Shown here: one piece after another, positions 4,385 to 34,314 of the stretch
How the letters are laid out: each line of letters begins with the position of its first letter
How positions within the stretch are numbered: position 1 is the first letter of the stretch
Assembly: GCA_030619925.1 (NCBI GenBank)
Contig: JAUXAL010000044.1
Coordinates: 1-35,214 of the forward strand
DNA from: Phycisphaerae bacterium
GTDB lineage: Bacteria > Planctomycetota > Phycisphaerae > Sedimentisphaerales > Anaerobacaceae
Direction of reading: 5' to 3'
DNA length: 35,214 bases
The notes under the pieces: generated by a model
What the model was told of the DNA's origin: nothing
Seen by the model: the letters and a program-made list of their open reading frames with translations, nothing else
The model's database searches: none
Translations under genes and position numbers: made by a program

Positions 4385-4387
4385 GCT

Positions 4388-20564: not shown

Positions 20565-20595
20565 TTGACAGATGCAGTCGATTATCTATTATAAA
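20565..20595 (+). promoter_or_regulatory. Sigma-70-type promoter of rex
   Basis: A consensus TTGACA at 20565-20570 is followed by an AT-rich -10 region: TATTAT at 20587-20592 (16-base spacer) or ATTATA at 20588-20593 (17-base spacer). Transcription would start near 20600, about 55 bases before the rex ATG. No clear ribosome site precedes that ATG. Confidence 0.6.
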
Positions 20596-20654: not shown

Positions 20655-21278
20655 ATGAAGTACCACAAAATTCCAGACGAGACTATTCGGCGGTTGCCGA
20701 TTTATCTGCGAGGGCTGCTGCTTTCGTCGGAACAGGGCCGACAAAGTATATCAAGCCGAAATCTGGCCGATTTCGTTGGGGTTAATTCCTGGCAGATAAG
20801 AAAGGATTTTTCCTACTTTGGCGATTTCGGCACCCGTGGAGTGGGCTATAACGTTGAAAAGCTCACAAAGCAAATTAAAAAAATACTCAAGCTTGATGCC
20901 GCCCCGAAAGTGGCTTTGGTTGGAGTAGGTAATCTGGGCTCGGCTGTCTTGGCGTATCCGGCCTTTAGAATATGTGGTTTCGACATCGCCGCCGCTTTCG
21001 ATATTAATCCTAAGAAAATCGGCAAGAAAATAAATAACATCGTGGTCGAAGACGCTTCAAAGCTGCGGACGTTGAAAAAACGAAGAATCAACCTTGCGAT
21101 TATAACTGTTCCACGAGACGCCGCCCAGCAGACAGCGGACGCGCTGGTCAAGGCGGGAGTAAGGGGTATTTTGAATTTTTCCCCGTGCTATATAGTGGTG
21201 CCTAAAAAAGTCAAGGTAATAACCATTGATATTGCAATGGACCTTGCCCGCTTGCCTTACTATATGCCGGCAAGTTGA
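20655..21278 (+). CDS. rex: Redox-sensing transcriptional repressor Rex
   Basis: Rex binds DNA when NADH/NAD+ is low and leaves it when NADH rises, typically derepressing fermentation and hydrogenase genes. The 207-residue protein has an N-terminal winged helix (about 1-75, IPDETIRRLPIYLRGL and SSRNLADFVGVNSWQIRKDFSYFG) and a Rossmann NAD(H) domain from about 84 (VALVGVGNLGSAVL). Further family features are AAFDINPKKIG and GVRGILNFSP. Length and order are standard. It stands 120 bases upstream of, and in the same direction as, the hydrogenase operon, which makes that operon its likely target. Confidence 0.96.
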   Translation: MKYHKIPDETIRRLPIYLRGLLLSSEQGRQSISSRNLADFVGVNSWQIRKDFSYFGDFGTRGVGYNVEKLTKQIKKILKLDAAPKVALVGVGNLGSAVLAYPAFRICGFDIAAAFDINPKKIGKKINNIVVEDASKLRTLKKRRINLAIITVPRDAAQQTADALVKAGVRGILNFSPCYIVVPKKVKVITIDIAMDLARLPYYMPAS

Positions 21279-21331
21279 AATATTAATTTGGATAATGTCG
21301 CTGTTAGTCGTTAGAAAATAATAAATTATAT

Positions 21332-21358: not shown

Positions 21359-21398
21359 AAGCATGCGACAAAGTTACAACTGAATTCAGGTGAGCAAA

Positions 21399-22454
21399 AT
21401 GCAGACTGTTTTTATAAGTGAATTAAAGCCGTTCCTGGATGCTGTTGCCGAAGATATGGACCTCTATGTCCCAAAGAATGCCGGGACGCATTATGTATAT
21501 AACAGATACGACCCCGCTGCTGAGGCCCCGGTGGAATTTAATAACATACGTACTTGTACGCCGATCAAAGAGTTTCTTTTTCCGCTGCGAGAGCTTGCTG
21601 CTGTTTTCCCCGAGCCTCTGGAACCGAAGGACATAAAACCATTTGCCGTCTTTGGACTTAAAGACTGCGATTTGCGCTCCATCGAAATCCTGGATAAGGT
21701 TTTTACAGAAGAAGAATTTGAGGACCCGTTCTATACGGCACGACGGGAGAAAATGTTTATAATCTCGTCCGATTGCTCCGAGCCGGCCGAGAGTTGTTTC
21801 TGTACCATCCTGGATGGGCGTCCTTTTGCTCAGAGCGGGTTTGATCTGAATATTTCGCAGGTAAAGGACGGCTTTATTATCGAAGTCGGCCCGCAAAAGG
21901 GCAAAGATTTTATAGAAAAACACTCCCAGCTTTTCACCGAGACCGGTGAGGCCTTATTGTCCGAGCGCGAGGAAAACAGGGCTGGGACGCAAAAGCAGCT
22001 TGAGCAAAACAATGCCGAACTCAAGTTCGATACGTCCATTAAGGAGATTGTGGAAAACAGTCAGGATTCTGAGGTCTTTGACTTTGAGGCGCAGAACTGC
22101 ATTGAGTGTCAGGCCTGTACGCGGGTCTGCCCCACCTGTCACTGCTTTTATCTTTACGACACCAAACGGGAAGATTACTTTGGCAAGATGAAGATGTGGG
22201 ACAGTTGTATGAGACTTGCCTACGCCGAAGTAGCCGGCGGTGCAAACCCGCGCAAAGTTCTCGGTGATAGAATCAAGCACCGTCTTATGCACAAGTTTTC
22301 TTATTTTCTCGATAGGTATGGCATCGATATGTGCGTCGGCTGCGGCAGATGTGTTGATGCCGAGGCCGGCGGGGTGGATATCCGCGAGATATTAAAGAAA
22401 TTAAATGAAGAGCTTAAAGGCAAAGATAAGACAAAAGCGAAAGTTGCAAAATGA
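21399..22454 (+). CDS. HydB-like iron-sulfur subunit (sulfhydrogenase beta type)
   Basis: This is a 351-residue iron-sulfur protein of the type found as the beta subunit of cytoplasmic sulfhydrogenases and related reductases, which passes electrons between a flavin subunit and the hydrogenase. The N-terminal about 200 residues follow the family pattern (VFGLKDCDLRSIEILDKVF, FIISSDCSEPAESCFCT). The first [4Fe-4S] motif is C234-x2-C237-x2-C240-x3-C244-P, with C247 and C249 after it; a second group is C312, C315, C318. I chose the ATG at 21399 because AGGTGA lies 5 bases before it; a GTG at 21390 overlaps that site. Its stop overlaps the next start (ATGA). It opens the hydrogenase operon. Confidence 0.85.
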   Translation: MQTVFISELKPFLDAVAEDMDLYVPKNAGTHYVYNRYDPAAEAPVEFNNIRTCTPIKEFLFPLRELAAVFPEPLEPKDIKPFAVFGLKDCDLRSIEILDKVFTEEEFEDPFYTARREKMFIISSDCSEPAESCFCTILDGRPFAQSGFDLNISQVKDGFIIEVGPQKGKDFIEKHSQLFTETGEALLSEREENRAGTQKQLEQNNAELKFDTSIKEIVENSQDSEVFDFEAQNCIECQACTRVCPTCHCFYLYDTKREDYFGKMKMWDSCMRLAYAEVAGGANPRKVLGDRIKHRLMHKFSYFLDRYGIDMCVGCGRCVDAEAGGVDIREILKKLNEELKGKDKTKAKVAK

Positions 22455-23272
22455 GCCAGAATCTTTACCAGCCTATAAACAGCGAGATCGTCGATATTGT
22501 AGACGAGTCTCCGACGATTAAGACTTTTGTCGTTGTGCCGGAAGAAAAAATTAAGTTCAAGACAGGCCAATTCGTGGAGCTGACTTTGCCGGGCGAAGGC
22601 GAAGCACCGTTTACCCCTTCTTCGTCGCCGGCCGATACTGAGAAGATGGACATTACCATCATGAAGGCCGGGCGGGTAACGGGTTTATTACACGAGTGCA
22701 AAAAGGGACAAAAGGTCGGTATTCGAGGGCCTTACGGCAATGGCTATCCGATTGATGATTTTGCCGGCAAAGAAGTCTACATCGTCGGCGGTGGTGTAGG
22801 TTTGGCACCAATCCGGTCTTTGTTCCTGACCCTCATCGATAGAATAAAGGACTTCAAATCCGTGGTTTGCCGATACGGGGCCAGAACACCCGACGATTTT
22901 ATCTATAAAAAAACACTTTTTGGCCCCTGGCAAAAAATCGACGGTGTGCATATGAAACTTACCGTCGATGAAGCAAACGGCGAGTGGAAAGACAATGTCG
23001 GCGTGGTAACTACCATACTCAAGCGCGACGACGTGAATATTGCAAACGCCGTGGCGGTGGTCTGCGGCCCGCCGATTATGATGAAATTCGCCACCTTAAA
23101 GCTGTTGGAATTCGGATTCGGTGCTGAGCAAATTTATATTTCAATGGAAAAGAATATGAGCTGCGGAGTAGGTAAATGCGGCCATTGCATGATTGGCAAG
23201 TATTATGTCTGCAAGGATGGGCCTGTCTTTACATATGACCAGATAAAGGACTACCCGAATATCTGGGATTAA
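22451..23272 (+). CDS. HydG-like FAD/NAD(P)-binding subunit (sulfhydrogenase gamma type)
   Basis: This is a 273-residue ferredoxin-NADP+ reductase-type protein, likely the NAD(P)H entry or exit point of the complex. The FAD-binding barrel spans about 1-105 (KTGQFVELTLPGEGEAPFTPSSSP), the nucleotide-binding domain about 106-230 (VYIVGGGVGLAPIRSL, CGPPIMMKF), and the C-terminus has a [2Fe-2S] motif C238-x4-C243-x2-C246-x7-C254. This layout fits the sulfhydrogenase gamma subunit and PyrK-like proteins; the preceding HydB-like gene decides for the former. It overlaps that gene by 4 bases. Confidence 0.87.
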   Translation: MSQNLYQPINSEIVDIVDESPTIKTFVVVPEEKIKFKTGQFVELTLPGEGEAPFTPSSSPADTEKMDITIMKAGRVTGLLHECKKGQKVGIRGPYGNGYPIDDFAGKEVYIVGGGVGLAPIRSLFLTLIDRIKDFKSVVCRYGARTPDDFIYKKTLFGPWQKIDGVHMKLTVDEANGEWKDNVGVVTTILKRDDVNIANAVAVVCGPPIMMKFATLKLLEFGFGAEQIYISMEKNMSCGVGKCGHCMIGKYYVCKDGPVFTYDQIKDYPNIWD

Positions 23273-23291
23273 GAGGAAAACGAGGTTTTGT

Positions 23292-23816
23292 ATGGGTAAG
23301 AAGTTAATAATCGATTTGGCAAAATGCAGACCTCAGAGCCAATCGAAGGTACGGTGTTCATATAAGCACCACCCTGATAACAAAGGCATCGACGCGTTGT
23401 TGGAGATGATTCGCTTCGCCCTAATCTGTCGCAGGTGCGAAACGGCACCGTGCATCACTGCTTGTCCCGTAGGAGCCCTGGAGAAGGAGCCAACGGAGAA
23501 CGATGATTATGGCGTTCTTAAACGGGCAAATATGCTGTGCACCGGCTGCGGCGGTTGTGCGATAGCCTGTCCGTTTGGAACGGTATATACCGATTTGATA
23601 CCTTTTCCAAGCAGTGTTTGCGACCGGTCCAAGGGCAGATTAAAGGAGGGCGAAAAGCCGTTGTGCGTTACTACCTCTGAAGACGGGAGTATAGATTACA
23701 AAGAGGTTAAAGTGGAGGGTGATTTGGTAGAGGTCTTTGAAGATATCGTTGTTAAAGTATCCGGCGGTGTCCTCTGGGAGCCGTTTTTGAGGGAAAAGGA
23801 AAAGGCAAATAAATGA
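23292..23816 (+). CDS. Polyferredoxin-type electron transfer subunit (HycB/CooF-like)
   Basis: This 174-residue ferredoxin resembles the HycB/CooF/HydN group that links a dehydrogenase module to a group 4 hydrogenase. Cysteines form C46-x2-C49-x4-C54-x3-C58-P and C83-x2-C86-x2-C89-x3-C93-P; further Cys at 12, 22 and about 109 could complete a third or fourth cluster, but one of these looks incomplete. It would carry electrons between the HydB/HydG-like diaphorase and the small subunit. The stop overlaps the start of the NuoH-like gene by 4 bases. Confidence 0.85.
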   Translation: MGKKLIIDLAKCRPQSQSKVRCSYKHHPDNKGIDALLEMIRFALICRRCETAPCITACPVGALEKEPTENDDYGVLKRANMLCTGCGGCAIACPFGTVYTDLIPFPSSVCDRSKGRLKEGEKPLCVTTSEDGSIDYKEVKVEGDLVEVFEDIVVKVSGGVLWEPFLREKEKANK

Positions 23817-24745
23817 GTGTCCCATTAAATATTTTGTTCTGGGTTGTTGTTATTCCGGGTACTGTTATTCTCGGTTTGGTCGCCTGCTGGATAGTCCGTA
23901 AGGTCAGCGCCCTGGTACAGTGGCGTGTTGGCCCACCGCTTTGCCAGCCGCTCTACGACATTATGAAATTGATGGGCAAGGAAATACTTGTGCCGCAGGA
24001 CGCTCAACGAACTGTTTTTATGGCGGCACCGCTTGTCGGCCTGGCGGGAGTGTTACTGCTTTCGATGATGCTCTGGCGGATAACTGTTGCTCAGACGGCC
24101 TTTATCGGTGACATCATTGTAGCGATTTATTTGATGGTGCTGCCTTCGCTGGCGTTGATTCTCGGCAGCTCAGCCAGCGGCAGTCCCCACGCAGCGATTG
24201 GCACAAGTCGGGAAATGAAACTGGTTATGGGTTATGAGCTATCGCTGGTGTTGGCATTTATCGTGGTGATTATAAAAACCGGTGGACAGCTCGATTTAGC
24301 TACAATCGCTCAGCAGGCACCGGCTCTTAGCATATCCGGAATGCTAGCGTTTTTGGTTGCGTTATTGTGTGTCCAAGCGAAACTCGGGTTTGTCCCGTTT
24401 GATATAGCCGAGGCAGAGACGGAGGTTGCCGGCGGCGTACTGATAGAATATTCCGGAGCTTTGCTTGCTGTCTGGAAAGTTATGCACGCGGTGATGCTCG
24501 TGGCTCTTCCGCTGTTCTTGGTAACGGTCTTCCTCGGCGGCTTTGGTACGACAGGATGGTCACTGGTCTGGGGCATCGGCAAATATGTATTAATAGTTGT
24601 TTTGTTGATTTTGATAAAGAATACAAACCCGCGTGTGCGGATCGACCAGGCAATGAAGTTCTTCTGGTTTTATTGTGGGATCGCTTTGGTTGCTGCAATT
24701 ATCCTGGCAACAATAGGTAGTTACTACGGTATCGGCTGGTTGTAG
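23813..24745 (+). CDS. NuoH-like membrane subunit of group 4 hydrogenase
   Basis: This is a 310-residue integral membrane protein of the complex I subunit 1 family (NuoH/HycD/EchB/MbhM), which joins the hydrophilic arm to the membrane arm and forms part of the proton path. Eight or so hydrophobic segments are visible. The conserved loop motifs RKVSALVQWRVGPPLCQPLYDIMKLMGKE, near the N-terminus, and KLGFVPFDIAEAETEVAGG with EYSGALLA, in the middle, are family hallmarks. The length agrees with HycD and EchB (about 280-310). Confidence 0.93.
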   Translation: MSVPLNILFWVVVIPGTVILGLVACWIVRKVSALVQWRVGPPLCQPLYDIMKLMGKEILVPQDAQRTVFMAAPLVGLAGVLLLSMMLWRITVAQTAFIGDIIVAIYLMVLPSLALILGSSASGSPHAAIGTSREMKLVMGYELSLVLAFIVVIIKTGGQLDLATIAQQAPALSISGMLAFLVALLCVQAKLGFVPFDIAEAETEVAGGVLIEYSGALLAVWKVMHAVMLVALPLFLVTVFLGGFGTTGWSLVWGIGKYVLIVVLLILIKNTNPRVRIDQAMKFFWFYCGIALVAAIILATIGSYYGIGWL

Positions 24746-24760
24746 ATGGTTGGACGAGGC

Positions 24761-24800
24761 CGTCGCCGTGCGACTTGAATCGTCGCCGTGCCGGCGACGG
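24761..24800. repeat. CGTCGCCGTGC repeat and hairpin in an operon spacer
   Basis: The 11-mer CGTCGCCGTGC occurs at 24761-24771 and 24781-24791. The second copy continues into its own inverse (CGGCGACG), giving an 8-bp GC-rich stem with a 3-base loop (24781-24799). It lies in the 74-base gap between the NuoH-like and small-subunit genes. It has no T-run. It may be a REP-like unit or an RNA-processing or stability element. Confidence 0.65.
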
Positions 24801-24819
24801 CTAAACAGGACACGAAATT

Positions 24820-25251
24820 ATGAGTTGGAAAATATGGTCGTTAAAAAAATCGCCTTGGGTGTTTCACGTTAACGCCGGTGCATGCAACAATTGTGATATT
24901 GAAATTGTAAATTTGCTGACTCCGAAGTTTGACGTTGAAAGGCTTGGTATCAAATTGGTCGGCTCTCCACGGCACGCTGATGCCCTGCTGGTAACCGGTG
25001 TGGGAACGCGCCAGGCGGTGCCGCGTCTGAAAGAAGTGTATCGCCAGACCGCCAAACCCTGCGTCGTCTTTCTCGTCGGTGCCTGTTCCTGTGGGACAGG
25101 TATATTCCACGAGGGGTATCACGTCGAAGGGCCTGTGGACAAAATAATCAGAGAAGAGGACCCTAACGCAATTATTGCTTATGTGCCGGGCTGCCCGCCG
25201 AAGCCGGAGGCTATGATATCCGGCATAGTGAAGGCGTTATCGGCTTTATGA
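24820..25251 (+). CDS. [NiFe] hydrogenase small subunit (NuoB-like)
   Basis: This is a 143-residue subunit of the NuoB/HycG/EchC/MbhJ family that holds the [4Fe-4S] cluster next to the NiFe site. All four ligands are visible: C22 and C25 (ACNNCDIEI), C89 (GACSCGTG) and C125 (PGCPPKPE). The short length is typical of group 4 small subunits, which lack the medial and distal clusters of uptake hydrogenases. The ribosome site is weak; a hairpin-forming repeat occupies the gap upstream and may influence its expression. Confidence 0.95.
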   Translation: MSWKIWSLKKSPWVFHVNAGACNNCDIEIVNLLTPKFDVERLGIKLVGSPRHADALLVTGVGTRQAVPRLKEVYRQTAKPCVVFLVGACSCGTGIFHEGYHVEGPVDKIIREEDPNAIIAYVPGCPPKPEAMISGIVKALSAL

Positions 25252-25285
25252 TGCGTCGTGCGTGATGCGTGATGCGTATTGCGAA
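25249..25285. repeat. GCGTGATGCGT tandem micro-repeat
   Basis: The spacer after the small-subunit stop reads as overlapping, degenerate copies of TGATGCGT and TGCGTGA, ending in TATTGCG. It separates the small and large subunit genes. Related wording (CGTATTGCG, GCGATACGCG, CACGCACGAC) reappears at 33693-33752. Confidence 0.6.
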
Positions 25286-25305
25286 AAATATACGAGAAAA
25301 GAAAT

Positions 25306-27027
25306 ATGAACCAGGAAGAGCTAAATAACAAACTGTCAGAAATAAAAGATAAGCTCATAGCAGTCGAGCAACCGGCGGACAGTAGAATATACCTTACCTG
25401 TGAGGCCGAAAATAGCTACGCCGTCAACAAGTTCTTGTTTGAAGATGTGCCTTTAAGGTTTGTGATTGCTACTGGCATTGATTCTGATGATTGTTTTGAA
25501 ATTCTTTATCACTATGCGTATGACGAAACCGGCTGTATGGTTACTTTGAAAGCTTTCATTCGTGACCGTGAAAACCCGGCGATTGAATCTATCGCACCGT
25601 TTATGCCGGCCGCGGAGTGGATAGAAAGAGAGATACACGACATATTGGGAATCGAGTTCAAAAATCATCCCGATATGAGGCGACTAATTTTGGCCGATGA
25701 TTGGCCGGAAGGTATCTATCCCTTGAGGAAAGATGCGAAAAAGCCAGTAAAACGGCCGGACGGTGAAGTATGCAGCCGTCCAATTGTCCAATCGCAATCG
25801 CCCGCCCGGCGGACCGTCGAGCTCTCGAAACCGGTTGTCGCGGTTGGCCCGTTTCATCCGCTGCAGGAAGAGATGGAGTTTTTCCAGCTCACCGTCGACG
25901 GCGAGATAGTAACGGATATTGATATGAGAATATCTTACAATCATCGCGGTATAGAAAAAATCAGCGAATCGCTGCAGTTTGACCAGGTTCCGTTTTTGGT
26001 TTCTCGTATATGCGGGATTTGCTCAGCCTCGCATCCCTTAGCTTATGTGCAAGCTGTTGAGGACATTGCCGGTGTCCAGCCGCCGGAACGGGCGCTGTAT
26101 GTGCGAACGATTATCAACGAGCTTGAACGCATCCACAGTCACGTACTCTGGGTGGGCCTGGCAGGGCACTTTATCGGCTACGATACCGTCTTTATGTGGG
26201 CCTGGAAATATCGTGAGCCGGTGCTTGATTTGCTCGAAGAGATAACGGGCAACAGAAACAATTACGGCAACGTGAAGGTTGGCGGCTGCCGTGAGGACAT
26301 CCCTGATGAGCTTACGCCCAAGATACTGAAAGAGCTGGACAAAATCGAAAAGAAGATGGAGATGCTAACCAAAGCCGTGCTTGACGACCCTATTCTCCAC
26401 GCTCGACTCAAGGGCGTAGGTATTTTGACCAGAGAAGCCGCTGTTGACTATGCCGTAACAGGCCCGACAGCGAGAGGCAGTGACGTTGGTATTGACGTAA
26501 GGCGAGACGACCCGTATGCCGCCTATGGCGCTTTGGACTGGAATGTAATTACCCAAACCGAAGGTGATGTCTTCGCCAAAGCTGTTGTCCGTCTTCTGGA
26601 GACCTTCGAATCCATTAAGATAGTCAGACAGGCCCTGAAAAACCTCCCTGACGGTCCTGTTACGACAGAAGTCAAGGAAATCCCGCCGGGCGAGGCGGTC
26701 GGGCACGCCGAAGCACCAAGAGGCGAAACATTCCATTATGTCCGCAGCGACGGCGGCAACAGGCCGGTCCGCCACAAGGTTAGAGCACCAAGTTACGTTA
26801 ATGTGCCTTCGTTCAGGGCCTCGTGCATTGGTCAGCACATTGCTGATGTTACAATTACACTCGCTGCGGTGGATCCTTGCTACAGTTGTACCGAAAGATT
26901 AGCTGTTGTTGACCAGCACAAGAACGTTATACACGATTACGATACTTTGCTGCGATTGAGTCGTGAGAAAACGGCACGGATTAAGAAAGAAATGGGCGCG
27001 CCCGAACTGAAGATGGAGGATTTATAA
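25306..27027 (+). CDS. [NiFe] hydrogenase large subunit, NuoC-NuoD fusion (HycE-like)
   Basis: This is the catalytic subunit of 573 residues. About residues 1-160 form a NuoC-like domain (EWIEREIHDILGIEF, HPDMRRLILADDWPEGIYPLR), fused to a NuoD/HycE-like domain. Both NiFe ligand pairs are present: C236 and C239 in RICGICSASH, and C525 and C528 in DPCYSCTER. That separates it from complex I NuoD, which has lost them. The length and fusion match HycE/HyfG rather than separate EchD/EchE or MbhK/MbhL subunits. The C-terminus extends about 45 residues past the last ligand, so processing by the downstream protease would occur just after DPCYSCTERL if at all. The ATG at 25306 was chosen over an upstream in-frame TTG (25279) lying in the repeat. 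Confidence 0.95.
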   Translation: MNQEELNNKLSEIKDKLIAVEQPADSRIYLTCEAENSYAVNKFLFEDVPLRFVIATGIDSDDCFEILYHYAYDETGCMVTLKAFIRDRENPAIESIAPFMPAAEWIEREIHDILGIEFKNHPDMRRLILADDWPEGIYPLRKDAKKPVKRPDGEVCSRPIVQSQSPARRTVELSKPVVAVGPFHPLQEEMEFFQLTVDGEIVTDIDMRISYNHRGIEKISESLQFDQVPFLVSRICGICSASHPLAYVQAVEDIAGVQPPERALYVRTIINELERIHSHVLWVGLAGHFIGYDTVFMWAWKYREPVLDLLEEITGNRNNYGNVKVGGCREDIPDELTPKILKELDKIEKKMEMLTKAVLDDPILHARLKGVGILTREAAVDYAVTGPTARGSDVGIDVRRDDPYAAYGALDWNVITQTEGDVFAKAVVRLLETFESIKIVRQALKNLPDGPVTTEVKEIPPGEAVGHAEAPRGETFHYVRSDGGNRPVRHKVRAPSYVNVPSFRASCIGQHIADVTITLAAVDPCYSCTERLAVVDQHKNVIHDYDTLLRLSREKTARIKKEMGAPELKMEDL

Positions 27028-27028
27028 A

Positions 27029-28894
27029 TTGGATAAAACTTTGCTTGTCCCTGTCTTTTTGCCGCTGATTGTAGGCTTTGTGCTGCTGTTTTTGCCGAAC
27101 AAAATGAAGTCTGTGTCCAGGGCATTGACGCTGATTATTTCGGTTATTACGTTTATTCTGGGAATCAAGATATTTACCGGTGGCATATCTTCGTTCGCTT
27201 GGCCCATCCTTCAATTAGATAATGTGAATTTAGAGTTGTTGCTGAATGTAACGCCTCTCGGGAAATTCGTATTGTTGTTTGCTATGGGCTTCGGCCTGTT
27301 AATAGCTTTATATTCACTGAAATCACAAGCGACGAACGACGAGCGACGAGCCCCGAATATTTATTACGGCGCGATTCTGATTACAATAGGCGGCTCAGCA
27401 GGAATACTACTTTCCAATCACTTATTGTTTCTGCTGATATTCTGGGAGATTGTTACCACTTCGCTGTATCTTCTGATAACAACGGGCGGCAGAAACTCCA
27501 ACTTTGCAGCGACAAAAAGTTTCGCAATGATAGGCGCATCCGACGCTGCTTTCATGCTCGGCGTATTTATGGTCTGGGCGCTTTCGGGTACATTTGTCAT
27601 CTCGGATATTAGCCTGACGACCACTTCCGCACTGACGATTATAGCCTTCTTGCTGCTTATGGTAGCGGCCATTACCAAAGCAGGTGCAATGCCTTTGCAT
27701 ACCTGGCTGCCTACCAGTGGTGAATATGCGCCGGCCTCAGTAATGGCTCTCTTGCCTGCTGCAATCGATAAACTTTTGGGAATTTATCTGCTGGTGATAA
27801 TCGTACGGGAAATTTTCATACTGGAGTCAGTTGCTTTAAGTATTGTCCTGGCGATTATTGGTACGGCAACGATTATTATTGCTGCGATGATAGCAATAGT
27901 ACAGCACAATATTAAGAAGCTGTTGGCCTACTCTGCGATTAGTCAGGTTGGTTATATGGTATTAGGCATAGCGACAATGACACCTGTCGGTTTTGCCGGT
28001 GCAGTATTTCATATGTTGAATAATGCAATCTATAAATGTTGTTTATTTCTTGGGGCAGGTGCAGTTGAGGAGCAAACCGGAACTGCTGAGATGGATGAAC
28101 TCGGCGGCCTGGGCAAAAAAATGCCGCTGACTTTTGTTGCGTTTCTCATTGCGGCTCTGAGCGTTTCCGGCATTCCACCATTCAACGGCTTTGTTTCCAA
28201 ATGGATGGTTTATCAAGGCGTGATTCAGATGGGGGCCGAACAAACGAGTGTGGCAGCCAATCTGTGGCCGATCTGGCTGATTGTAGCTATCTTTGGAAGT
28301 GCGATTACGTTGGCTTACTCGGTAAAGATCATACACTCAGTGTTTCTTTCACGTTTGCCTTCTGACCTCAAAGATGTAAAAGAAGTTTCGCTGCCTATGA
28401 AGATTCCGTGCATTATACTTGCTTCACTATGTGTACTTTTCGGAGTCTTTTATAAACAACTGCTTGAGTGGTTCATTTACCCTGCTTTGAATATAGAACC
28501 GGGTACTGCAATCTTCGGCACCTGGGAATCCGGACTCGCTACTATCCTGATAGCAGTTGGTATTGGTCTTGGTGTGCTCATCTGGTTTGTCGGGAAGCTG
28601 TCGAAAATGGTCAGAATCGTGCCCACCTGGACTTGCGGCGAAGTGCAGACTAATGAACAAATGACGGTACCGGGAACACATTTCTACAAAACTGTTTCTT
28701 CTATGGGCGGCTTGAAACAGCTTTACGCCGGCCAGGAAAAAGGCCATTTCGACACATATAATCAAGGTGGGAAGATAGGCCTGGCTTTAACAGATTTTCT
28801 GCGATGGCTTCATTCCGGTGTGCTGCCGATGTATTTGACCTGGGTAACTTTAGGATTACTGGTAATTATATTTATAGTTTGTGAGATTCGATAA
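27029..28894 (+). CDS. NuoL/HycC-like proton-translocating membrane subunit
   Basis: This is a 621-residue polytopic antiporter-like subunit of the PF00361 type (NuoL/MrpA-N/HycC/EchA). Conserved features are LLFLLIFWEIVTTSLYLLI, AGAMPLHTWLPTSGEYAPASVMALL, KKLLAYSAISQVGYMVLG, HMLNNAIYKCCLFLGAGAV and SGIPPFNGFVSKW, which include the lysine and glutamate positions used in proton transfer. The C-terminal part (TWTCGEVQ...FYKTV) resembles EchA/HyfB. The start is a TTG at 27029 with GGAGG 8 bases upstream, one base after the large-subunit stop. Residues about 101-109 are encoded by a micro-repeat, described separately. Confidence 0.92.
   Translation: MDKTLLVPVFLPLIVGFVLLFLPNKMKSVSRALTLIISVITFILGIKIFTGGISSFAWPILQLDNVNLELLLNVTPLGKFVLLFAMGFGLLIALYSLKSQATNDERRAPNIYYGAILITIGGSAGILLSNHLLFLLIFWEIVTTSLYLLITTGGRNSNFAATKSFAMIGASDAAFMLGVFMVWALSGTFVISDISLTTTSALTIIAFLLLMVAAITKAGAMPLHTWLPTSGEYAPASVMALLPAAIDKLLGIYLLVIIVREIFILESVALSIVLAIIGTATIIIAAMIAIVQHNIKKLLAYSAISQVGYMVLGIATMTPVGFAGAVFHMLNNAIYKCCLFLGAGAVEEQTGTAEMDELGGLGKKMPLTFVAFLIAALSVSGIPPFNGFVSKWMVYQGVIQMGAEQTSVAANLWPIWLIVAIFGSAITLAYSVKIIHSVFLSRLPSDLKDVKEVSLPMKIPCIILASLCVLFGVFYKQLLEWFIYPALNIEPGTAIFGTWESGLATILIAVGIGLGVLIWFVGKLSKMVRIVPTWTCGEVQTNEQMTVPGTHFYKTVSSMGGLKQLYAGQEKGHFDTYNQGGKIGLALTDFLRWLHSGVLPMYLTWVTLGLLVIIFIVCEIR
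27329..27351. repeat. Micro-repeat inside the NuoL-like gene
   Basis: The tract is built of ACGAACGACGAGCGACGAG-like units and reads in frame as A-T-N-D-E-R-R-A within a loop between two membrane helices. Neighbouring codons are ordinary. Its style matches the intergenic micro-repeats of this window, not coding sequence. Confidence 0.6.
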
Positions 28895-28897
28895 CGT

Positions 28898-28980
28898 TGT
28901 CATTGCGAGCGGAGCGAAGCAATCTCTAAAACTTAACGAATGAGATTGCCACGGGCTGCTTCGCAGCCCTCGCAATGACA
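28898..28980. mobile_element. 83-bp MITE/REP-like palindromic element
   Basis: The ends are perfect inverted repeats of 12 bp, TGTCATTGCGAG (28898-28909) and CTCGCAATGACA (28969-28980). Inside are a GGAGCGAAGCAATCTC arm, a GAGATTGCC arm, and GGGCTGCTTCGCAGCCC, itself a tight hairpin (7-bp stem, 3-base loop). I recognise this wording as a non-coding element widespread in environmental bacterial genomes. It separates the NuoL-like gene from the MbhD/E-like gene; the hairpins could also affect transcription through the operon. Confidence 0.85.
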
Positions 28981-28995
28981 GAAGGGACAAACACA

Positions 28996-29547
28996 ATGAC
29001 TATTATCTTCTACATTTTACTGCTGTTTATAATAATCGCGGCTATTATTGCGGTGGAAACACGGTATCTATTAAGTGCCGTGATTTGTGTCGGCGCCATC
29101 GGCTTTGGTGCTTCTTTAATGTTTCTGTTCCTGCGAGCGCCGGATATTGCAATAACTCAGATTGTAGTGGAAGTTTTAGGTTTAATCATCCTGATTCGTG
29201 CCTGCCTGTCTCGCGAGTTAACCTTTATCAGCGGCGACAGGGAATTTTTCGCAGTGGTCGTTTCGGCGGTAATTATCTTCGCAATTTTCCTGGCGGGCAT
29301 AAAGGTTCTTGACACTTTACCTGATTTTGGCACCGCTATTTTTGCTGAAGTTCCAGACACTGCTTCCCAAACATATATCGGCGAAGGGCTTGAGAAAACA
29401 GGTGCAGCAAATATCGTGGCTTCGGTCATTCTGGATTTTCGTGCCTACGATACGCTCGGCGAAGCAACTGTGCTGTTTACCTCGATTATCGGGGCAACTG
29501 TTATATTGCGAAAAAAGAGCAAGAAGCTACTGGAGGACCCCGAGTAA
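28996..29547 (+). CDS. MbhD/MbhE-like fused membrane subunit (MrpA C-terminal part)
   Basis: This 183-residue membrane protein corresponds to the C-terminal portion of MrpA, encoded as MbhD and MbhE in archaeal membrane hydrogenases. The first half has the DUF4040-type pattern (TRYLLSAVICVGAIGFGASLMFLFLRAPDIAITQIVVE), and the second half the MbhE-type end (NIVASVILDFRAYDTLGEATVLFTSIIGA). AAGGGA stands 8 bases before the ATG at 28996; an in-frame ATG at 28975 lies inside the palindromic repeat and is less likely. It is thought to help form the sodium/proton path. It overlaps the next gene by one base. Confidence 0.85.
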   Translation: MTIIFYILLLFIIIAAIIAVETRYLLSAVICVGAIGFGASLMFLFLRAPDIAITQIVVEVLGLIILIRACLSRELTFISGDREFFAVVVSAVIIFAIFLAGIKVLDTLPDFGTAIFAEVPDTASQTYIGEGLEKTGAANIVASVILDFRAYDTLGEATVLFTSIIGATVILRKKSKKLLEDPE

Positions 29548-30005
29548 TGAAAGGCATGACAATTATAGTAAAGACCATCAGCAGTTGGGTCAAGGTGCTC
29601 ATTTTTCTGTTCGGTATTTATATTATTCTTTTTGGCCATCTTACTCCGGGCGGCGGCTTCGCCGGCGGTGTGATTTTGGCCTCTTGTTATGTACTGCTTA
29701 TGCTGGCATTCGGCAGAGAATATGTAGAAAAAAACCTGCCTCTACCGGTTGCCTCAAAGCTCGATTGTCTGGGGGCATTCCTGTTTGCCCTGATAGCGGT
29801 CTTGGGGCTGGTCTTTGGTGGTACCTTTTTCCTCAATTTTCTTTACCAAAAGTATTTACCGGGAGAAGCGCTGGAGCTTGTCAGTGCCGGGACTATACCA
29901 TTGTCGAACATCGCTATTGGCCTGAAAGTCGGTGCGTCACTATTTCTGGTAATTCTCGTTCTTTCGATGTTTAGGCCCGATATGTCAGGTAAGAAAGAGG
30001 AGTAA
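29547..30005 (+). CDS. MrpB/MnhB-type antiporter subunit
   Basis: This 152-residue membrane protein of the MnhB family (also MbhF) has the family signature FGHLTPGGGFAGGVILAS at about 29-46 and four hydrophobic segments. In Mrp antiporters and Mrp-linked hydrogenases it is an essential part of the cation-translocating module. It starts in the stop codon of the previous gene (TAATG) and is followed 5 bases later by mrpC. Confidence 0.92.
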   Translation: MKGMTIIVKTISSWVKVLIFLFGIYIILFGHLTPGGGFAGGVILASCYVLLMLAFGREYVEKNLPLPVASKLDCLGAFLFALIAVLGLVFGGTFFLNFLYQKYLPGEALELVSAGTIPLSNIAIGLKVGASLFLVILVLSMFRPDMSGKKEE

Positions 30006-30010
30006 AACCA

Positions 30011-30367
30011 ATGCCTTATGCACTATGCTTTTTGCTGTTCATGATTGGGCTGTATTGTGCAGTCGTCAAAAAAAATATGGTTAAGATCGTGATCGGCATA
30101 ATGGTTATGGAATATGCCGTCAATCTTTTTCTGATTATGCTGGGGTACCGCTTCGGCGGAGTAGCGCCAATAATCGACAAGGGCCAGCTCGAAGCAGGAA
30201 TGGAGCAATTTATTAGCAGCTCTGTTGACCCGCTGCCTCAGGCCCTCGTACTTACCGCGATCGTTATTAGTTTAGGTTCTTTAGCCCTGATGATTTCAAT
30301 ATGTATTAGAACTTACGAAAAATACGGCACCTTTGACATTACTCAAATAAGGAGACTAAAAGGATGA
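30011..30367 (+). CDS. MrpC/MnhC-type antiporter subunit (NuoK-like)
   Basis: This is a 118-residue protein with three membrane helices, related to NuoK. Typical motifs are GLYCAVVKKNMVKIVIGIMVMEYAVNLFLI and DPLPQALVLTAIVISL, the latter being nearly invariant in MrpC. The stop overlaps the mrpD start (ATGA). Confidence 0.94.
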   Translation: MPYALCFLLFMIGLYCAVVKKNMVKIVIGIMVMEYAVNLFLIMLGYRFGGVAPIIDKGQLEAGMEQFISSSVDPLPQALVLTAIVISLGSLALMISICIRTYEKYGTFDITQIRRLKG

Positions 30368-31896
30368 GCATTCCGCTGCCTGTTTTCATTGCTATCCCTT
30401 TGGTGACGGCATTTGTGCTTCCGATTTTCGGTAAGAAGGGCAAAGACGCTGCAACGGTCTTGGCCAACCTTGCAACCATTTCACTGCTCGTATTGGCCGT
30501 TGCCTCCATCGGTCAATCCGGCGTTTATGAAATAGGCAAGTGGTCTATTCCACTTGGAATTAATCTTGTCCTTGACGGCTTAAGCTCACTTTTGCTTTTG
30601 GCTATTAGTGTTGTCGCTAGCGCTGCGATGCTCTTTAGTGCCAGGTATATGGAACAATACACCGCCAAGGCAAAATACCTGAGCCTGTTTCTGCTTATGG
30701 TTGCAGGTATGAACGGTGTCGTACTTTCAGGGGACATCTTCAATCTGTTTGTGTTCCTCGAAATTGCTTCGCTCGCCTCCTACGCACTTGTCGGCTTTGG
30801 CTGTGAGCACGAAGAGCTTGAGGCATCTTTTAAGTATATGGTTCTGGGCAGCATTGGTTCTATATTTATCCTTTTTGCGGTTGCCCTTGTTTACGGTAAC
30901 ACCGGCTCGCTTAATATGGCTTATATTGGAAAAGCAATCCGAGACTCGGGTCTGAACGCCGGCCTTTCCTTTGCTATGGCTTTGTTTGTTGTCGGCTTCG
31001 GCCTGAAAGCCGCCCTGATGCCGTTCCACGCCTGGCTGCCCGATGCGCACCCATCGGCCCCTGCTCCGATTTCTGCAATGCTGTCCGGCATCCTCATAAA
31101 GACCCTCGGCATTTATGCCCTTGCTCGTGTGGTTTTCAATGTTTTTGGCGTTTCAGTCTCAATCGGCTGGCTCTTGGTCGTACTCGGTCTTTTGAGTATG
31201 GTTGCCGGGGCGTTTTTGGCAATAGGACAGGGGGATTTCAAGCGGCTCTTAGCCTATTCGAGCATCAGCCAGATTGGCTATGTAGTCCTCGGTATCGGTC
31301 TTGGCGGACTTATCCTTGCCAGGGCGGGTAATAATATAAGTACCGAACAGTTAGGATGGGCTTCGCTGGCTATCCTTGGCGGCCTGTTCCACCTTGTCAA
31401 CCACGCTGTTTATAAGTCTTTGTTGTTTTTGACCAGCGGCTCAGTCCAAATGTCAACCGGCACAAGGCAGCTAAAACAGATGGGCGGGCTCGCAGAAAAA
31501 TTACCCTTCACACGCGCAACCTGCACCCTCGCATCGGCCTCTATTGTCGGTATCCCGCCTTTCAGCGGGTTCTGGAGTAAGTTAATTCTGGTGGTCGCAG
31601 CAGTACAGGCAGGTTTTTATTGGATCGCAGCAATAATTGTTTTCGTAAGTTTGTGTACTTTAATTATGTATTTGAAGGTTCAGCGGTATGTTTTCCTTGG
31701 CGAGCTGCCGGAGAATCTCCAGCAAATAAAGGAAAACAGGGGCTCTATGCTCGTTGCAATGGTATTCCTGGCCTGTTTATGTGCGCTTATGGGCTTGCTC
31801 GTGCTGGTCCCCTGCTTAAAGCAGAGCATTCTTGAGCCCGCTGTTAAGGTGTTGACTGATGGACTCGAGTACTCTGCTATTGTAATGAAAATGTGA
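30364..31896 (+). CDS. MrpD/MnhD-type antiporter subunit (NuoM/N-like)
   Basis: This 510-residue protein has about 14 membrane helices and belongs to the PF00361 family. It shows SGDIFNLFVFLEIASLASYALVGF, KAALMPFHAWLPDAHPSAPAPISAMLSG, KRLLAYSSISQIGYVVLG, HLVNHAVYKSLLFLTSGSV and GIPPFSGFWSKL, with the conserved lysines and glutamate in transmembrane positions. It is the second antiporter-like subunit of the operon, beside the NuoL-like protein. Length and order (after mrpC) are standard. Confidence 0.94.
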   Translation: MSIPLPVFIAIPLVTAFVLPIFGKKGKDAATVLANLATISLLVLAVASIGQSGVYEIGKWSIPLGINLVLDGLSSLLLLAISVVASAAMLFSARYMEQYTAKAKYLSLFLLMVAGMNGVVLSGDIFNLFVFLEIASLASYALVGFGCEHEELEASFKYMVLGSIGSIFILFAVALVYGNTGSLNMAYIGKAIRDSGLNAGLSFAMALFVVGFGLKAALMPFHAWLPDAHPSAPAPISAMLSGILIKTLGIYALARVVFNVFGVSVSIGWLLVVLGLLSMVAGAFLAIGQGDFKRLLAYSSISQIGYVVLGIGLGGLILARAGNNISTEQLGWASLAILGGLFHLVNHAVYKSLLFLTSGSVQMSTGTRQLKQMGGLAEKLPFTRATCTLASASIVGIPPFSGFWSKLILVVAAVQAGFYWIAAIIVFVSLCTLIMYLKVQRYVFLGELPENLQQIKENRGSMLVAMVFLACLCALMGLLVLVPCLKQSILEPAVKVLTDGLEYSAIVMKM

Positions 31897-31914
31897 CAGT
31901 AAGGGTGTGATCGT

Positions 31915-32424
31915 ATGAGACGACTGATTTACTTTGTTTTGGCTTTTGTTATTTGGATCCTGCTCACATGGCAGATTGATGCTCAGGTGGTAATTGCCGG
32001 TTTGATAGCCTCGGCAATCGTGGCATTTTTGTTCCATGAAATCTTGCCTAAGGAACATCGTATATTTATTTCGCCGATGCGGTTGTTTTGGCTTTTGGTT
32101 TATGTGCCGGTATTCTTCTATTATATGATGAAGGCTAATCTGGATGTTGTCTATCGCGCCCTGCATCCTAAAATGCCGATAAAGCCTGGCATTGTAAAAA
32201 TAAAAACAATTCTAAAAACAGAATCTGGAATCACTGCACTGGCTAATTCCATTACTCTAACGCCGGGCACTTTGACGGTGGATTTGACTGACGATGGGGA
32301 CCCCGCTTCGCGGGAGACCTTTTTATATATCCACTGGATTAACGTAAAATCCGATGATATCGAGCAAGCAAGCAAACTCATCGCTCAAAGGTTTGAGTGG
32401 TTCTTGAAAAAGATTTTCGAATAG
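31915..32424 (+). CDS. MrpE/MnhE-type antiporter subunit
   Basis: This is a 169-residue protein of the MnhE family: three hydrophobic segments at the N-terminal half, then a soluble part with TESGITALANSITLTPGTLTVDL, the hallmark of the family. The last 40 residues (YIHWINV...FEWFLKKIFE) are also typical. It lies 18 bases after mrpD. Confidence 0.93.
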   Translation: MRRLIYFVLAFVIWILLTWQIDAQVVIAGLIASAIVAFLFHEILPKEHRIFISPMRLFWLLVYVPVFFYYMMKANLDVVYRALHPKMPIKPGIVKIKTILKTESGITALANSITLTPGTLTVDLTDDGDPASRETFLYIHWINVKSDDIEQASKLIAQRFEWFLKKIFE

Positions 32425-32436
32425 AAAGAGGTAGCC

Positions 32437-32694
32437 ATGATAACGTTATTCTATATTGGCTTATTTATATGTTGTTTCTTGTGTTTGTATCGAATAGGTC
32501 GCGGCCCAAGCGCTCCGGACAGAACCGTGGCTATTGATATTTTGGGTATCGTTATAGTAGGTTTCTGTGCCGTCATTGGCCTGGATGCCGAAAAGGATTT
32601 TTATCTTAACGTCGCTCTTGCCTGGGCACTGCTGAGCTTTATAGGAACTATAGCACTGGCAAAGTTTTTGGAGGGCAGAAGTTTCGATGACTGA
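32437..32694 (+). CDS. MrpF/MnhF-type antiporter subunit
   Basis: This is an 85-residue membrane protein with three helices. The RIGRGPSAPDRTVAIDILGIVIVGF segment is the family signature, and DFYLNVALAWALLSFIGTIALAKFLEG is the usual end. It starts 12 bases after mrpE and overlaps mrpG by 8 bases, a sign of translational coupling. Confidence 0.93.
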   Translation: MITLFYIGLFICCFLCLYRIGRGPSAPDRTVAIDILGIVIVGFCAVIGLDAEKDFYLNVALAWALLSFIGTIALAKFLEGRSFDD

Positions 32695-33019
32695 TATCAT
32701 TGGATACATACTGATAATGATTGGAATTTTGTTCGATGTATTCGGTTGTATAGGGCTGGTCCGTTTTCCCGATGTTTACAACCGTCTGCAGGCCTCAACG
32801 AAATGCGTAACTCTCGGAACCATTTTGCTTTTAGTTGGTGTTGCCTTAGTCAGCGGTTCGGGAGCCACAGGCGCTAAAGCGATAATCTGCGCTGTTTTTA
32901 TATTGATAACTTCACCTACGGCTGCACACGCAATCGCCAAAGGCGCTTATGCTTCCGGGGTGGCACTGTGGAAAAATAGCGTCGTTGACAAATACGCAGA
33001 AGAAACTGATAAGCGATAA
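32687..33019 (+). CDS. MrpG/MnhG-type antiporter subunit
   Basis: This is a 110-residue membrane protein with three helices. The signature GCIGLVRFPDVYNRLQASTKCVTLGTILLL and the end FILITSPTAAHAIAKGAYASGV are those of MnhG. It completes the B-C-D-E-F-G order of a full Mrp module, with the MrpA part supplied by the NuoL-like and MbhD/E-like genes. Confidence 0.94.
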   Translation: MTDIIGYILIMIGILFDVFGCIGLVRFPDVYNRLQASTKCVTLGTILLLVGVALVSGSGATGAKAIICAVFILITSPTAAHAIAKGAYASGVALWKNSVVDKYAEETDKR

Positions 33020-33041
33020 AAGAAAACTAAATGCCATATCA

Positions 33042-33055
33042 ATAGTCGATAGTCA
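33042..33055. repeat. ATAGTC(G/A) micro-repeat in an operon spacer
   Basis: Two tandem copies of a 7-mer (ATAGTCG, ATAGTCA) are embedded in CAATAGTCGATAGTCAATTACTAAC-like sequence in the 57-base gap between mrpG and the ferredoxin gene. It is short; I list it because each spacer here carries a different word. Confidence 0.4.
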
Positions 33056-33076
33056 ATTACTAACGGGAGCTCAAAA

Positions 33077-33688
33077 TTGCGTTTGCCAAAATTAAGAGAA
33101 TTAAAAGAAGCTGTTACAGCGGTCTTTTCGCCGCGGTTTACCACTCGGTTTCCTGCTGTGCCTTGCGTAGTGCCGGAAAGGTACAGAGGCAAACCGGAAT
33201 TTGACCTCGATACCTGCATCGGCTGCGGTGCCTGTGTAAACGTCTGTCCGACCGAAGCGCTTACCCAAACCGATGTTTTCCAAGCCGACCCGCCGGTAAG
33301 AAAGATCACTCTTCGACATGATACGTGCATTTTTTGCGGCAATTGCAGGGATAATTGCACCACTGAAACGGGCATAAAGCTCTCAAACGAGTGGGACCTG
33401 GCTGGTTTAGATAGAGAAGCTATGGCTGAGACTCAGGAATTTGAGCTTCAGCTATGCGAAAAGTGTGGTGCGTTAATAGGTACCAAAAAGCATCTGGTCT
33501 GGCTTTATGAAAAGCTCGGCCCATTGGCCTATACAAACCCTTCCTTATTGATTGCCAAAAGCGGTGAGCTGCTTACCGAGCCGCAGGATGTTCGCAAGCA
33601 TGCGCAGAAGGATGAAGGTTCCCAAACAGGCGATTTTATGCGAATCCTGTGTCCTAAGTGCAAATGCGAGCTGAACATCCGGCTGTAA
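33077..33688 (+). CDS. NuoI/EchF-like ferredoxin subunit with C-terminal Cys pairs
   Basis: This is a 203-residue electron-transfer subunit. Two [4Fe-4S] motifs are clear: C47-x2-C50-x2-C53-x3-C57-P (TCIGCGACVNVCP) and C84-x2-C87-x2-C90-x3-C94 (TCIFCGNCRDNCTT), as in NuoI/MbhN/EchF/HycF. Beyond them are CEKCG (about 132-136) and CPKCKC near the end, which look like a metal-binding (zinc-ribbon-like) tail found in HycF-type subunits. It would pass electrons to the small subunit. The start is a TTG at 33077 with GGGAG 8 bases before it. Confidence 0.88.
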   Translation: MRLPKLRELKEAVTAVFSPRFTTRFPAVPCVVPERYRGKPEFDLDTCIGCGACVNVCPTEALTQTDVFQADPPVRKITLRHDTCIFCGNCRDNCTTETGIKLSNEWDLAGLDREAMAETQEFELQLCEKCGALIGTKKHLVWLYEKLGPLAYTNPSLLIAKSGELLTEPQDVRKHAQKDEGSQTGDFMRILCPKCKCELNIRL

Positions 33689-33692
33689 AATT

Positions 33693-33752
33693 CCGTATCG
33701 TATTGCGTCCCCGGTATTATGTGTATTGTATGCGATACGCGCCACGCACGAC
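33693..33752. repeat. GTATTGCG/GCGATACGC micro-repeats before the protease gene
   Basis: The spacer contains CGTATCGTATTGCG and, 30 bases on, GTATTGTATGCGATACGCGCCACGCACGAC-like wording, partly inverted copies of each other and related to the repeat at 25249-25285. The in-frame TTG at 33726 of the next gene lies in it. Confidence 0.45.
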
Positions 33753-33761
33753 AAGAATTCT

Positions 33762-34247
33762 ATGGGTACTGACCAACAACTCCTCCGGCAGCTAAATAAA
33801 TTGCGCAATTCCGCGACGCTTATTGTCGGAATCGGAAACTTATTAAAAGGTGACGATGGAGTTGGGCCGCTTGTTTGTGAGCAGCTCGCCGGAAAAACCA
33901 GTGCCGAGCTGATAGATGCCGGTACTGTGCCGGAGAATTATATCCAGCCGATTATAAAAAAAGCCCCGCGGAATCTGCTTGTTATTGATGCTATCGACTT
34001 CGGAGCCCCGGCTGGAACAATAAGGATATTCGAACCTGAGCAGCTAAACTCGCACGCTTTTTCGACGCATGCGCTCTCACCCCGGTTATTTGTTGATATG
34101 GTCTGCCAAAGTATTAAGGTTGATGTATATTTTGTCGGGATTCAACCTGCACAAACCCAATTAGGTGAATCGGTATCGCCACAAGTAAGCCAGGCCATCC
34201 AGCAGCTTTCACAGATACTTGCCGAAGTTTTCCCGCTCGAGGAGTAA
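33762..34247 (+). CDS. [NiFe] hydrogenase maturation protease (HycI/M52 type)
   Basis: This is a 161-residue endopeptidase that trims the C-terminus of the hydrogenase large subunit after nickel insertion. The metal-binding and active-site motifs are GIGNLLKGDDGVG (about 25-37), DAGTVPENY, VIDAIDFG and FSTHALSP, and resemble HycI more than HyaD/HybD. The ATG at 33762 gives the usual length; a TTG at 33726 in frame is part of the repeat upstream. It closes the operon, consistent with a need to process the HycE-like subunit. HypA-F accessory genes are not in the window. Confidence 0.93.
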   Translation: MGTDQQLLRQLNKLRNSATLIVGIGNLLKGDDGVGPLVCEQLAGKTSAELIDAGTVPENYIQPIIKKAPRNLLVIDAIDFGAPAGTIRIFEPEQLNSHAFSTHALSPRLFVDMVCQSIKVDVYFVGIQPAQTQLGESVSPQVSQAIQQLSQILAEVFPLEE

Positions 34248-34248
34248 T

Positions 34249-34298
34249 ACAGAGCCGCAACCGTTTCCTAAAACAGAGCCGCGACCGTAAGGGAGCGG
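34249..34298. repeat. Direct repeat ACAGAGCCGC(A/G)ACCGT
   Basis: A 16-mer occurs at 34249-34264 and 34273-34288 with one mismatch, the second continuing into AAGGGAGCGGT. I recognise AGAGCCGCGACCGTAAGGGAGCGG as a recurring planctomycete spacer word. It fills the convergent gap between the protease and the ACT gene; no hairpin with T-run was found. Confidence 0.6.
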
Positions 34299-34314
34299 TA
34301 TTGTACCTGTAGAT

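Follow-up and report, generated by a model that had tools for sequence, protein, structure and literature searches.

We analyzed a 35,214-nucleotide contig of a Phycisphaerae bacterium (Sedimentisphaerales; GenBank assembly GCA_030619925.1, contig JAUXAL010000044.1; called the window here, at its full length) that carries, in a single run of genes, a group 4 [NiFe] hydrogenase, an Mrp antiporter module and a diaphorase pair related to that of sulfhydrogenases. The cluster is conserved, and its most likely product is an NAD(P)H-linked Mrp hydrogenase, which a single 2019 report (PMC6349859) had foreshadowed. Judging from its genes, the product is probably a membrane-bound, energy-converting [NiFe] hydrogenase of the membrane-bound hydrogenase (MBH)/Mrp type, with an NAD(P)H diaphorase at the end of its soluble arm. 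Several bacterial phyla share this gene set, a pattern that suggests an enzyme of hydrogen metabolism with NAD(P)H as its electron partner.

Gene content and conservation of the cluster

Seventeen plus-strand genes (20655-34247; Table 1) follow each other in the order rex, HydB/AsrA-like, HydG/AsrB-like, CooF-like, NuoH, NuoB, NuoCD, MrpA-type, MbhDE, MrpB, C, D, E, F, G, NuoI, HycI, with gaps of at most 111 bases. Five joints overlap by 1-8 bases; the HydB/HydG and CooF/NuoH gene pairs overlap by 4 bases each. Pfam was run on all seventeen proteins and NCBIfam on ten of them, and both back these names. An initial annotation made from the letters alone had described one operon joining the three modules. 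MnhB, MrpC, MrpD, MnhE, MrpF, MrpG, MbhD and MbhE were all matched, in agreement with the complete MrpB-G set and MrpA-like parts it had listed, and a group 4 hydrogenase set is present (NuoB-like small subunit, NuoH-like and antiporter-like membrane subunits, maturation protease). To that description we add the Rex gene, directly upstream on the same strand. No formate dehydrogenase, CO dehydrogenase or other recognisable input enzyme was found among the proteins scanned at 20655-34247, as the annotation had also stated, and no AsrC siroheme subunit (NuoI gives a 33-bit ferredoxin-domain match, cut-off 324); the window cluster lacks a molybdopterin oxidoreductase gene.

The large subunit has both of the CxxC pairs ascribed to it, reading RICGIC (L1) and DPCYSC (L2). 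Its best solved match is HycE of E. coli formate hydrogenlyase-1 (7z0s, 2.5e-100), and MBH chain 6cfw_L matches at 2.9e-82. In the NuoB-like subunit the [4Fe-4S] ligands C22, C25, C89 and C125 are kept in 69 of 69 rows. A quick tree of the D domain (94 rows, five dropped) united the 66 cluster-linked rows, truncated ones included, in one clade (95 SH-aLRT). In a careful tree (61 rows; 38 of 99 dropped as near copies, fragments or long branches) 52 cluster rows again formed one clade (100/99). HycE/HyfG lay outside it, as did MBH, a long branch and the sole 4d row, which paired with L114-L116 (97/85). Membership in group 4a, as a HycE-type formate hydrogenlyase, and in group 4d, with Pyrococcus furiosus MBH, was rejected on these placements; the earlier term "HycE-like" is limited to the C/D fusion, because in the tree the protein does not fall within the HycE/HyfG branch.

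In Omnitrophota and Hydrogenedentota large subunits (e.g. L079, L117) the second motif is DPCYCC, with an extra Cys beside the ligand. At one locus (L068, the same place as L053) a NuoD-like protein without either CxxC pair, a non-hydrogenase cousin, is clustered with CooF, FdhA-like and Mrp genes. The existence of such a cousin, and an MrpA-type subunit closest to a chain of MBS (6u8y_X), would fit a non-hydrogenase relative of the MBS/Ehr kind that reduces sulfur or another acceptor. This is barely credible for the window, whose large subunit has the two NiFe motifs and groups with proteins keeping both of them, and which also encodes a HycI-type protease.

Of 392 sampled genomes in the window's phylum, 15 have a large subunit scoring 490 bits or more, as do 4 of 68 in the phylum of a Hydrogenedentes record (L020). 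Among 237 genomes from the phylum of an Omnitrophota record (L021), 67 carry it: 66 at 502 bits or more and one contig-end fragment, with the 51% identical fragment G582 excluded. Besides the window, 70 clade loci were read; 37 of them came from a hand selection of 35 along the list of these 67 Omnitrophota plus 2 from L020's phylum, and the rest as two sets of 19 and 14. HydG is in place in 60 of the 70, HydB in 56, and every gene from HydB to NuoI in 43. Eight of the ten loci without HydG end too early and one is masked; at the remaining one (L067), no HydG occurs within a contig stretch running 3.3 kb past the matched FdhA-like part. The order HydB-HydG-CooF-NuoH-NuoB-NuoCD-Mrp is kept in Planctomycetota, Omnitrophota and Hydrogenedentota loci, so that the adjacency on which the initial annotation had staked its reading is conserved in three phyla; nor does the tree place the large subunit with non-hydrogenase homologues, the other outcome that it had named as refuting. 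HydB and HydG were found at none of seven comparison loci from other group 4 branches (L069-L072, L114-L116), nor at L068 or on the short contig L022. Two loci with a Bipolaricaulota label share 79-81% identity with the window, and L010 nests among Phycisphaerae in the tree, reflecting either transfer or mis-binning.

A HydG search of 145 genomes of L021's phylum gave 28 with a close copy (54-62% identity, at least 342 bits), all other matches scoring 249 bits or less. In raw genome counts, uncorrected for kinship, 28 of the 145 have both HydG and the large subunit, 3 the large subunit only (including one with a masked stretch), none HydG only and 114 neither. In the window's order, 10 of 60 genomes, its own included, have a copy of at least 433 bits, and two further copies score 309 and 316. 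Outside the window 37 close copies were fetched (28 plus 9; many from already sampled genomes, one at the same place as L054), and every one is flanked by HydB and CooF; the distant copies L154 and L155 have HydB and no CooF. Distances for the large subunit correlate with those for HydG, HydB and CooF (r 0.84-0.89, with 0 of 999 permutations as high) and for NuoH (0.86).

These data bear on the idea that the HydB/HydG-like subunits, merely co-transcribed with the hydrogenase, make up a soluble enzyme of their own, either AsrAB-like or an NAD(P)H:ferredoxin/polysulfide reductase. We regard this as distinctly unlikely. Both subunit families are known from soluble sulfhydrogenases and AsrABC, but the scanned proteins include neither AsrC nor a group 3 large subunit, the pair overlaps as CooF and NuoH do, and each of the 37 fetched copies sits between HydB and CooF. 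Borrowing of the pair from a soluble group 3b hydrogenase (moonlighting) was rejected: the genome yielded no 3b large subunit and no second close HydG homologue, only a 28-bit match.

In the same 145 genomes (again raw counts, uncorrected for kinship) [FeFe] hydrogenases occur in 3 of the 31 with the complex vs 53 of the 114 without it; the two tend to exclude each other.

The proposed electron route and its probable donor

NAD(P)H is the likely electron input, and NADH the more likely nucleotide. Electrons would pass from NAD(P)H to FAD and [2Fe-2S] in the HydG-like subunit, to [4Fe-4S] clusters in the HydB-like subunit, and on through the CooF-like ferredoxin subunit, two [4Fe-4S] clusters in NuoI and one in NuoB to the NiFe site. 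This flow would be coupled, via NuoH, two antiporter-like subunits and MrpB-G, to Na+ or H+ movement.

In HydG, the four Cys ligands of [2Fe-2S] are invariant in 57 aligned copies, and the flavin- and nucleotide-site residues (GGG.G.AP and CGP) are kept in at least 95% of these rows. The loop after the GGG motif, which might bear on the preference for NADH vs NADPH, reads RYGARTPDD in the window and is variable among relatives. The nearest solved chain is 9nez_C (2.6e-53), and the only solved relative found for HydB is 9nez_B/9nf0 (1.1e-44). Fourteen Cys of HydB are invariant in 55 rows; position 325 is Cys in 48 of the 55, whereas the window and six relatives have E or D there. All twelve Cys of NuoI, eight for clusters and four more, are kept in 49 of 49 rows. 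At FdhA-type loci CooF has its full set of 16 Cys (11 rows; one column 10/11). In the other 55 rows its two middle motifs are intact in 54-55, three of the four first-motif Cys are kept in 31-42 and those of the last motif in 49-55. By these counts CooF is trimmed in part of the loci without an FdhA-like partner, which the lost cluster may have faced, as in formate dehydrogenase structures.

FdhA-like matches occur in 11 of the 70 relatives, 10 of them with HydG; the ten fetched loci have HydG, FdhA-like and CooF in that order, and L067 also holds the gene. These loci are basal and scattered in the tree, and a fewest-changes count gives 3. The simplest reading would be that the gene was lost in the window's lineage and separately in the Omnitrophota/Hydrogenedentota lineage, although the counts themselves give no direction. 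Two FdhA-like proteins scanned against TIGR01591 scored 152 and 145 bits (cut-off 666), compared with 893 for the genome's own FdhA on contig C100. The Cys-His of that FdhA, which we take to mark the formate dehydrogenase catalytic site, is kept in none of 11 FdhA-like rows (L055, L056, L058, L060-L066 and L068, with L067 left out) in an alignment of divergent rows. We rejected these proteins as formate dehydrogenases; a NuoG-like structural or wiring role seems plausible. The loss fits a remark in the 2019 report that such a protein could not be named formate dehydrogenase (PMC6349859).

A formate-linked origin, in which the ancestral complex was a formate hydrogenlyase and the window's form borrows a formate dehydrogenase encoded elsewhere, is highly improbable: an FdhA-like protein does lie between HydG and CooF in basal relatives, and the genome does encode a formate dehydrogenase alpha subunit well above its cut-off, but none of the FdhA-like proteins has the Cys-His pair and a NuoF-type gene adjoins the C100 enzyme.

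Rex senses NADH/NAD+, and a Rex gene with a Rex-like site at the head of the operon hints, in part, at NADH as the nucleotide. The site matches what we take to be the Rex operator consensus, TTGTGAAnnnnTTCACAA, and lies after a promoter match that is the best of 23 found in 20300-34900 (shuffles give 19.6); two other 11/14 sites occur in the window (776 and 14313). Among 48 relatives that could show it (HydB plus either Rex or at least 1.5 kb upstream), rex adjoins the cluster in 23. In 20 of the 24 loci with rex, no more than 5% of 200 base shuffles equal the best Rex box-like site close to the start of that gene; at L016, L054, L084 and L100 a larger share does.

Energetics, host genome and points of weight

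The window corresponds to contig C28 in a draft genome of 4.0 Mb (92.8% complete), whose nearest named kin are mostly Phycisphaerae, Sedimentisphaerales and Planctomycetota metagenome-assembled genomes. The genome has RnfC above cut-off and CdhC/AcsB, and no [FeFe] hydrogenase was found in it. One other [NiFe] large subunit occurs, on C100 (L073). Its small and large genes (7642-11717, minus strand) are above the cut-offs of TIGR00391 and NF033181, the large subunit being far below those of ShyA and HydA, and show no Tat signal by eye. Immediately downstream of them come a MetV-like gene (named by eye; no NCBIfam match) and a MetF-like gene, with further Wood-Ljungdahl genes around (by eye); this is possibly an H2-linked methylenetetrahydrofolate reductase.

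At 180 mV per ion and with assumed potentials, H2 production from NADH (-280 to -320 mV) needs ion inflow at 100 Pa H2 or more, and gives -0.2 to 0.3 ion at 10 Pa and 0.15-0.6 ion per H2 at 1 Pa; NADPH (-370 mV) gives 0.8 ion at 10 Pa. H2 at one bar could reduce NAD+ with export of 1.0-1.5 ions. The initial annotation had proposed NAD(P)H-to-H2 coupled to ion pumping, or the reverse; the NAD(P)H link is supported, but NADH-to-H2 with outward pumping yields less than one ion even at 1 Pa, which makes H2 release powered by the ion gradient, or NAD+ reduction by H2, the more probable mode. Two antiporter-like subunits make a high ion ratio plausible, and this too favours an ion-driven or H2-oxidising mode. 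At ordinary H2 levels the ion gradient would power NADH-dependent H2 release; where H2 is plentiful, NAD+ would be reduced by H2 and ions exported. In the window's genome the complex would work alongside Rnf and the Wood-Ljungdahl pathway.

Several observations weigh against an NAD(P)H-armed Mrp hydrogenase. The HydB- and HydG-like scores bear out the homology claimed initially but fall under the curated equivalog cut-offs, so the two proteins count as homologues of those equivalogs rather than as members. The window's CooF-like subunit lacks two Cys of its first and two of its last cluster motif (Q15, S18, S113 and S129 stand at these ligand places, numbered from ATG 23292), and HydB has E325 in place of Cys; the wire may therefore be altered in this lineage. 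MrpD distances track the large subunit poorly (r 0.47, and 0.05 in Omnitrophota alone), perhaps through a paralogue mix-up in which the best match is an MrpA paralogue at some loci. On the Mrp side, judged in loci with at least 7.5 kb downstream, L098 (no masked bases) has no MbhDE, MrpB, C, E, F or G match in 10.3 kb downstream of the large subunit, while its diaphorase-hydrogenase cluster does keep antiporter-like and NuoI genes; L108 has no Mrp genes but a 100-base scaffold gap directly after the large subunit, and a third exception is partly masked. Rex was not found beside 25 of the 48 clusters with enough upstream sequence, which makes the pointer to NADH only partial. The raw nature of the co-occurrence and [FeFe] counts belongs here as well, as does the conserved NuoI, which could accept ferredoxin directly.

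That last point leads to the alternative that ferredoxin is the true donor at NuoI, as in MBH, the HydB/HydG-like pair being a side exit or entry to NAD(P)+ in a three-way ferredoxin/NAD(P)/H2 complex. We think this unlikely, though it has to be reckoned with. Besides the invariant cluster Cys of NuoI, HydDB gives group 4g as putatively ferredoxin-coupled (PMC5037454), and ferredoxin (-450 to -500 mV) would yield 1.4-2.3 ions per H2 at 10-100 Pa, unlike NADH. On the other side, Rex heads the window's operon, and the Rnf of the same genome can convert ferredoxin electrons to NADH.

With NAD(P)H as the partner, fermenters and acetogens would be able to exchange NADH and H2 against an ion gradient without electron bifurcation, and the arm would be a parallel to the NADH module of complex I. 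A bolder proposal, which we put forward tentatively, is that a second, independently assembled NADH-input module (FNR-type HydG, HydB and CooF; in the basal form with a catalytically dead FdhA-like protein as NuoG) was set on a complex I-type Mrp hydrogenase, and that the resulting reversible, ion-gradient-driven NADH:H+ oxidoreductase may replace bifurcating [FeFe] hydrogenases in several candidate phyla.

Relation to described systems and further features

The closest description in print is that of one Saganbacteria genome, RX5A, with hydrogenase, Mrp-like subunits, cooF, asrA and asrB in one region; the set was called enigmatic, an Mbh-like function was supposed, and Omnitrophica are among the relatives named (PMC6349859). 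It differs in having a molybdopterin oxidoreductase subunit, and the available part of the report, compared by description only, does not propose NAD(P)H; the HydG-FdhA-like-CooF loci of the window's relatives resemble it. The combination of modules, which the initial annotation had described as usually seen apart, was already in print. Among the matches listed, from open-licence texts without supplements, we found nothing further on this gene combination, and no paper on this cluster in the Sedimentisphaerales energetics literature.

Pyrococcus furiosus MBH has ferredoxin as donor and is not known to carry a diaphorase. It supplies the best solved match of MrpD (6cfw_H, 3e-85) besides that of 6cfw_L, and stands apart in the tree. 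MBS chains H and X, both antiporter-like, are among the matches, X being the best for the window's MrpA-type subunit; the window protein, however, keeps the NiFe ligands, and MBS reduces sulfur (PMC7684303). Among solved structures, the beta and gamma chains of P. furiosus sulfhydrogenase 1 (9nez, 9nf0; group 3b) come nearest to the diaphorase pair, whereas the window's large subunit is NuoD-type and no alpha or delta subunits are among its scanned proteins. Sulfhydrogenase 1 is soluble, with alpha and delta subunits of its own. E. coli formate hydrogenlyase-1 shares the fused C/D large subunit but belongs to a distinct clade, and the window has no FdhF-type partner.

According to HydDB (PMC5037454), the coupling partner of the group 4 respiratory H2-evolving enzymes (subgroups 4a-4g) is formate, CO or ferredoxin. 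Group 4g is similar in that Ace Lake Omnitrophota enzymes are described as Mrp-linked, its role being listed as undetermined; it differs, by description only, in its putative ferredoxin coupling and in that a diaphorase goes unmentioned in the available text (PMC5037454, PMC8542988). The Ace Lake Omnitrophota genomes have only one identifiable hydrogenase each (PMC8542988). As of a 2021 paper no subgroup 4g enzyme had been biochemically characterised (PMC7886697), so the question of an NAD(P)H arm is amenable to direct test.

Table 1. Coordinates and supporting matches of the cluster's genes and candidate control sites
Feature	Position	Strand	Support
Putative sigma-70-like promoter, TTGACA-16-TATTAT	20565..20592	+	pattern match only, 11/12 consensus
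Candidate Rex operator-like site, TTGTGAATGTGAACTCAA	20612..20629	+	11/14 match to presumed consensus TTGTGAAnnnnTTCACAA
Rex redox (NADH/NAD+) repressor	20655..21278	+	Pfam Put_DNA-bind_N 4e-17, CoA_binding 5.3e-23
AsrA/HydB/ShyB-like Fe-S subunit	21390..22454	+	ShyB 1.4e-50, HydB 3.9e-47, AsrA 4.7e-40
AsrB/HydG-like FAD, NAD(P), [2Fe-2S] diaphorase subunit	22451..23272	+	AsrB 2.4e-67, HydG 7.7e-54
CooF/HycB-like ferredoxin subunit, reduced cluster ligands	23292..23816	+	Fer4_11 3.1e-9
NuoH/MbhM-like membrane subunit	23813..24745	+	NADHdh 5e-59
NuoB/MbhJ-like small subunit, one [4Fe-4S]	24820..25251	+	Oxidored_q6 1.6e-20
Fused NuoC/NuoD-type [NiFe] large subunit	25306..27027	+	Complex1_49kDa 6.3e-71, Complex1_30kDa 1.8e-26
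MrpA/NuoL-type antiporter-like subunit	27029..28894	+	Proton_antipo_M 8.2e-60
MbhD-MbhE-like subunit (MrpA C-terminal part)	28975..29547	+	MbhD 6.8e-16, MbhE 9.2e-9
MrpB	29547..30005	+	MnhB 1.3e-26
MrpC	30011..30367	+	Oxidored_q2 3.4e-26
MrpD-type antiporter-like subunit	30364..31896	+	Proton_antipo_M 4.4e-64
MrpE	31915..32424	+	MNHE 2.9e-40
MrpF	32437..32694	+	MrpF_PhaF 3.1e-18
MrpG	32687..33019	+	PhaG_MnhG_YufB 5.1e-26
NuoI/MbhN/HycF-like 2x[4Fe-4S] subunit, C-terminal four-Cys motif	33077..33688	+	
HycI-type hydrogenase maturation protease	33726..34247	+	TIGR00072 9.7e-32, above cut-off; TIGR00142 hycI slightly below its own

The HydB-like gene may start at either GTG 21390 or ATG 21399. 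At four loci (L081, L083, L104, L111) the genes for the large subunit and the MrpA-type protein are separated by an extra MrpD-like match, so there may be a third antiporter-like subunit. Elsewhere in the window, a PhoD-like phosphatase is listed at 17496-20375; this open reading frame overlaps the upstream one at 16172-17647, and its true start is probably further in. A chemotaxis-like cluster (receptor, CheW, CheB, CheD, CheR, CheA and CheX-like, named by eye from translations) occupies 1756-11633 on the minus strand.

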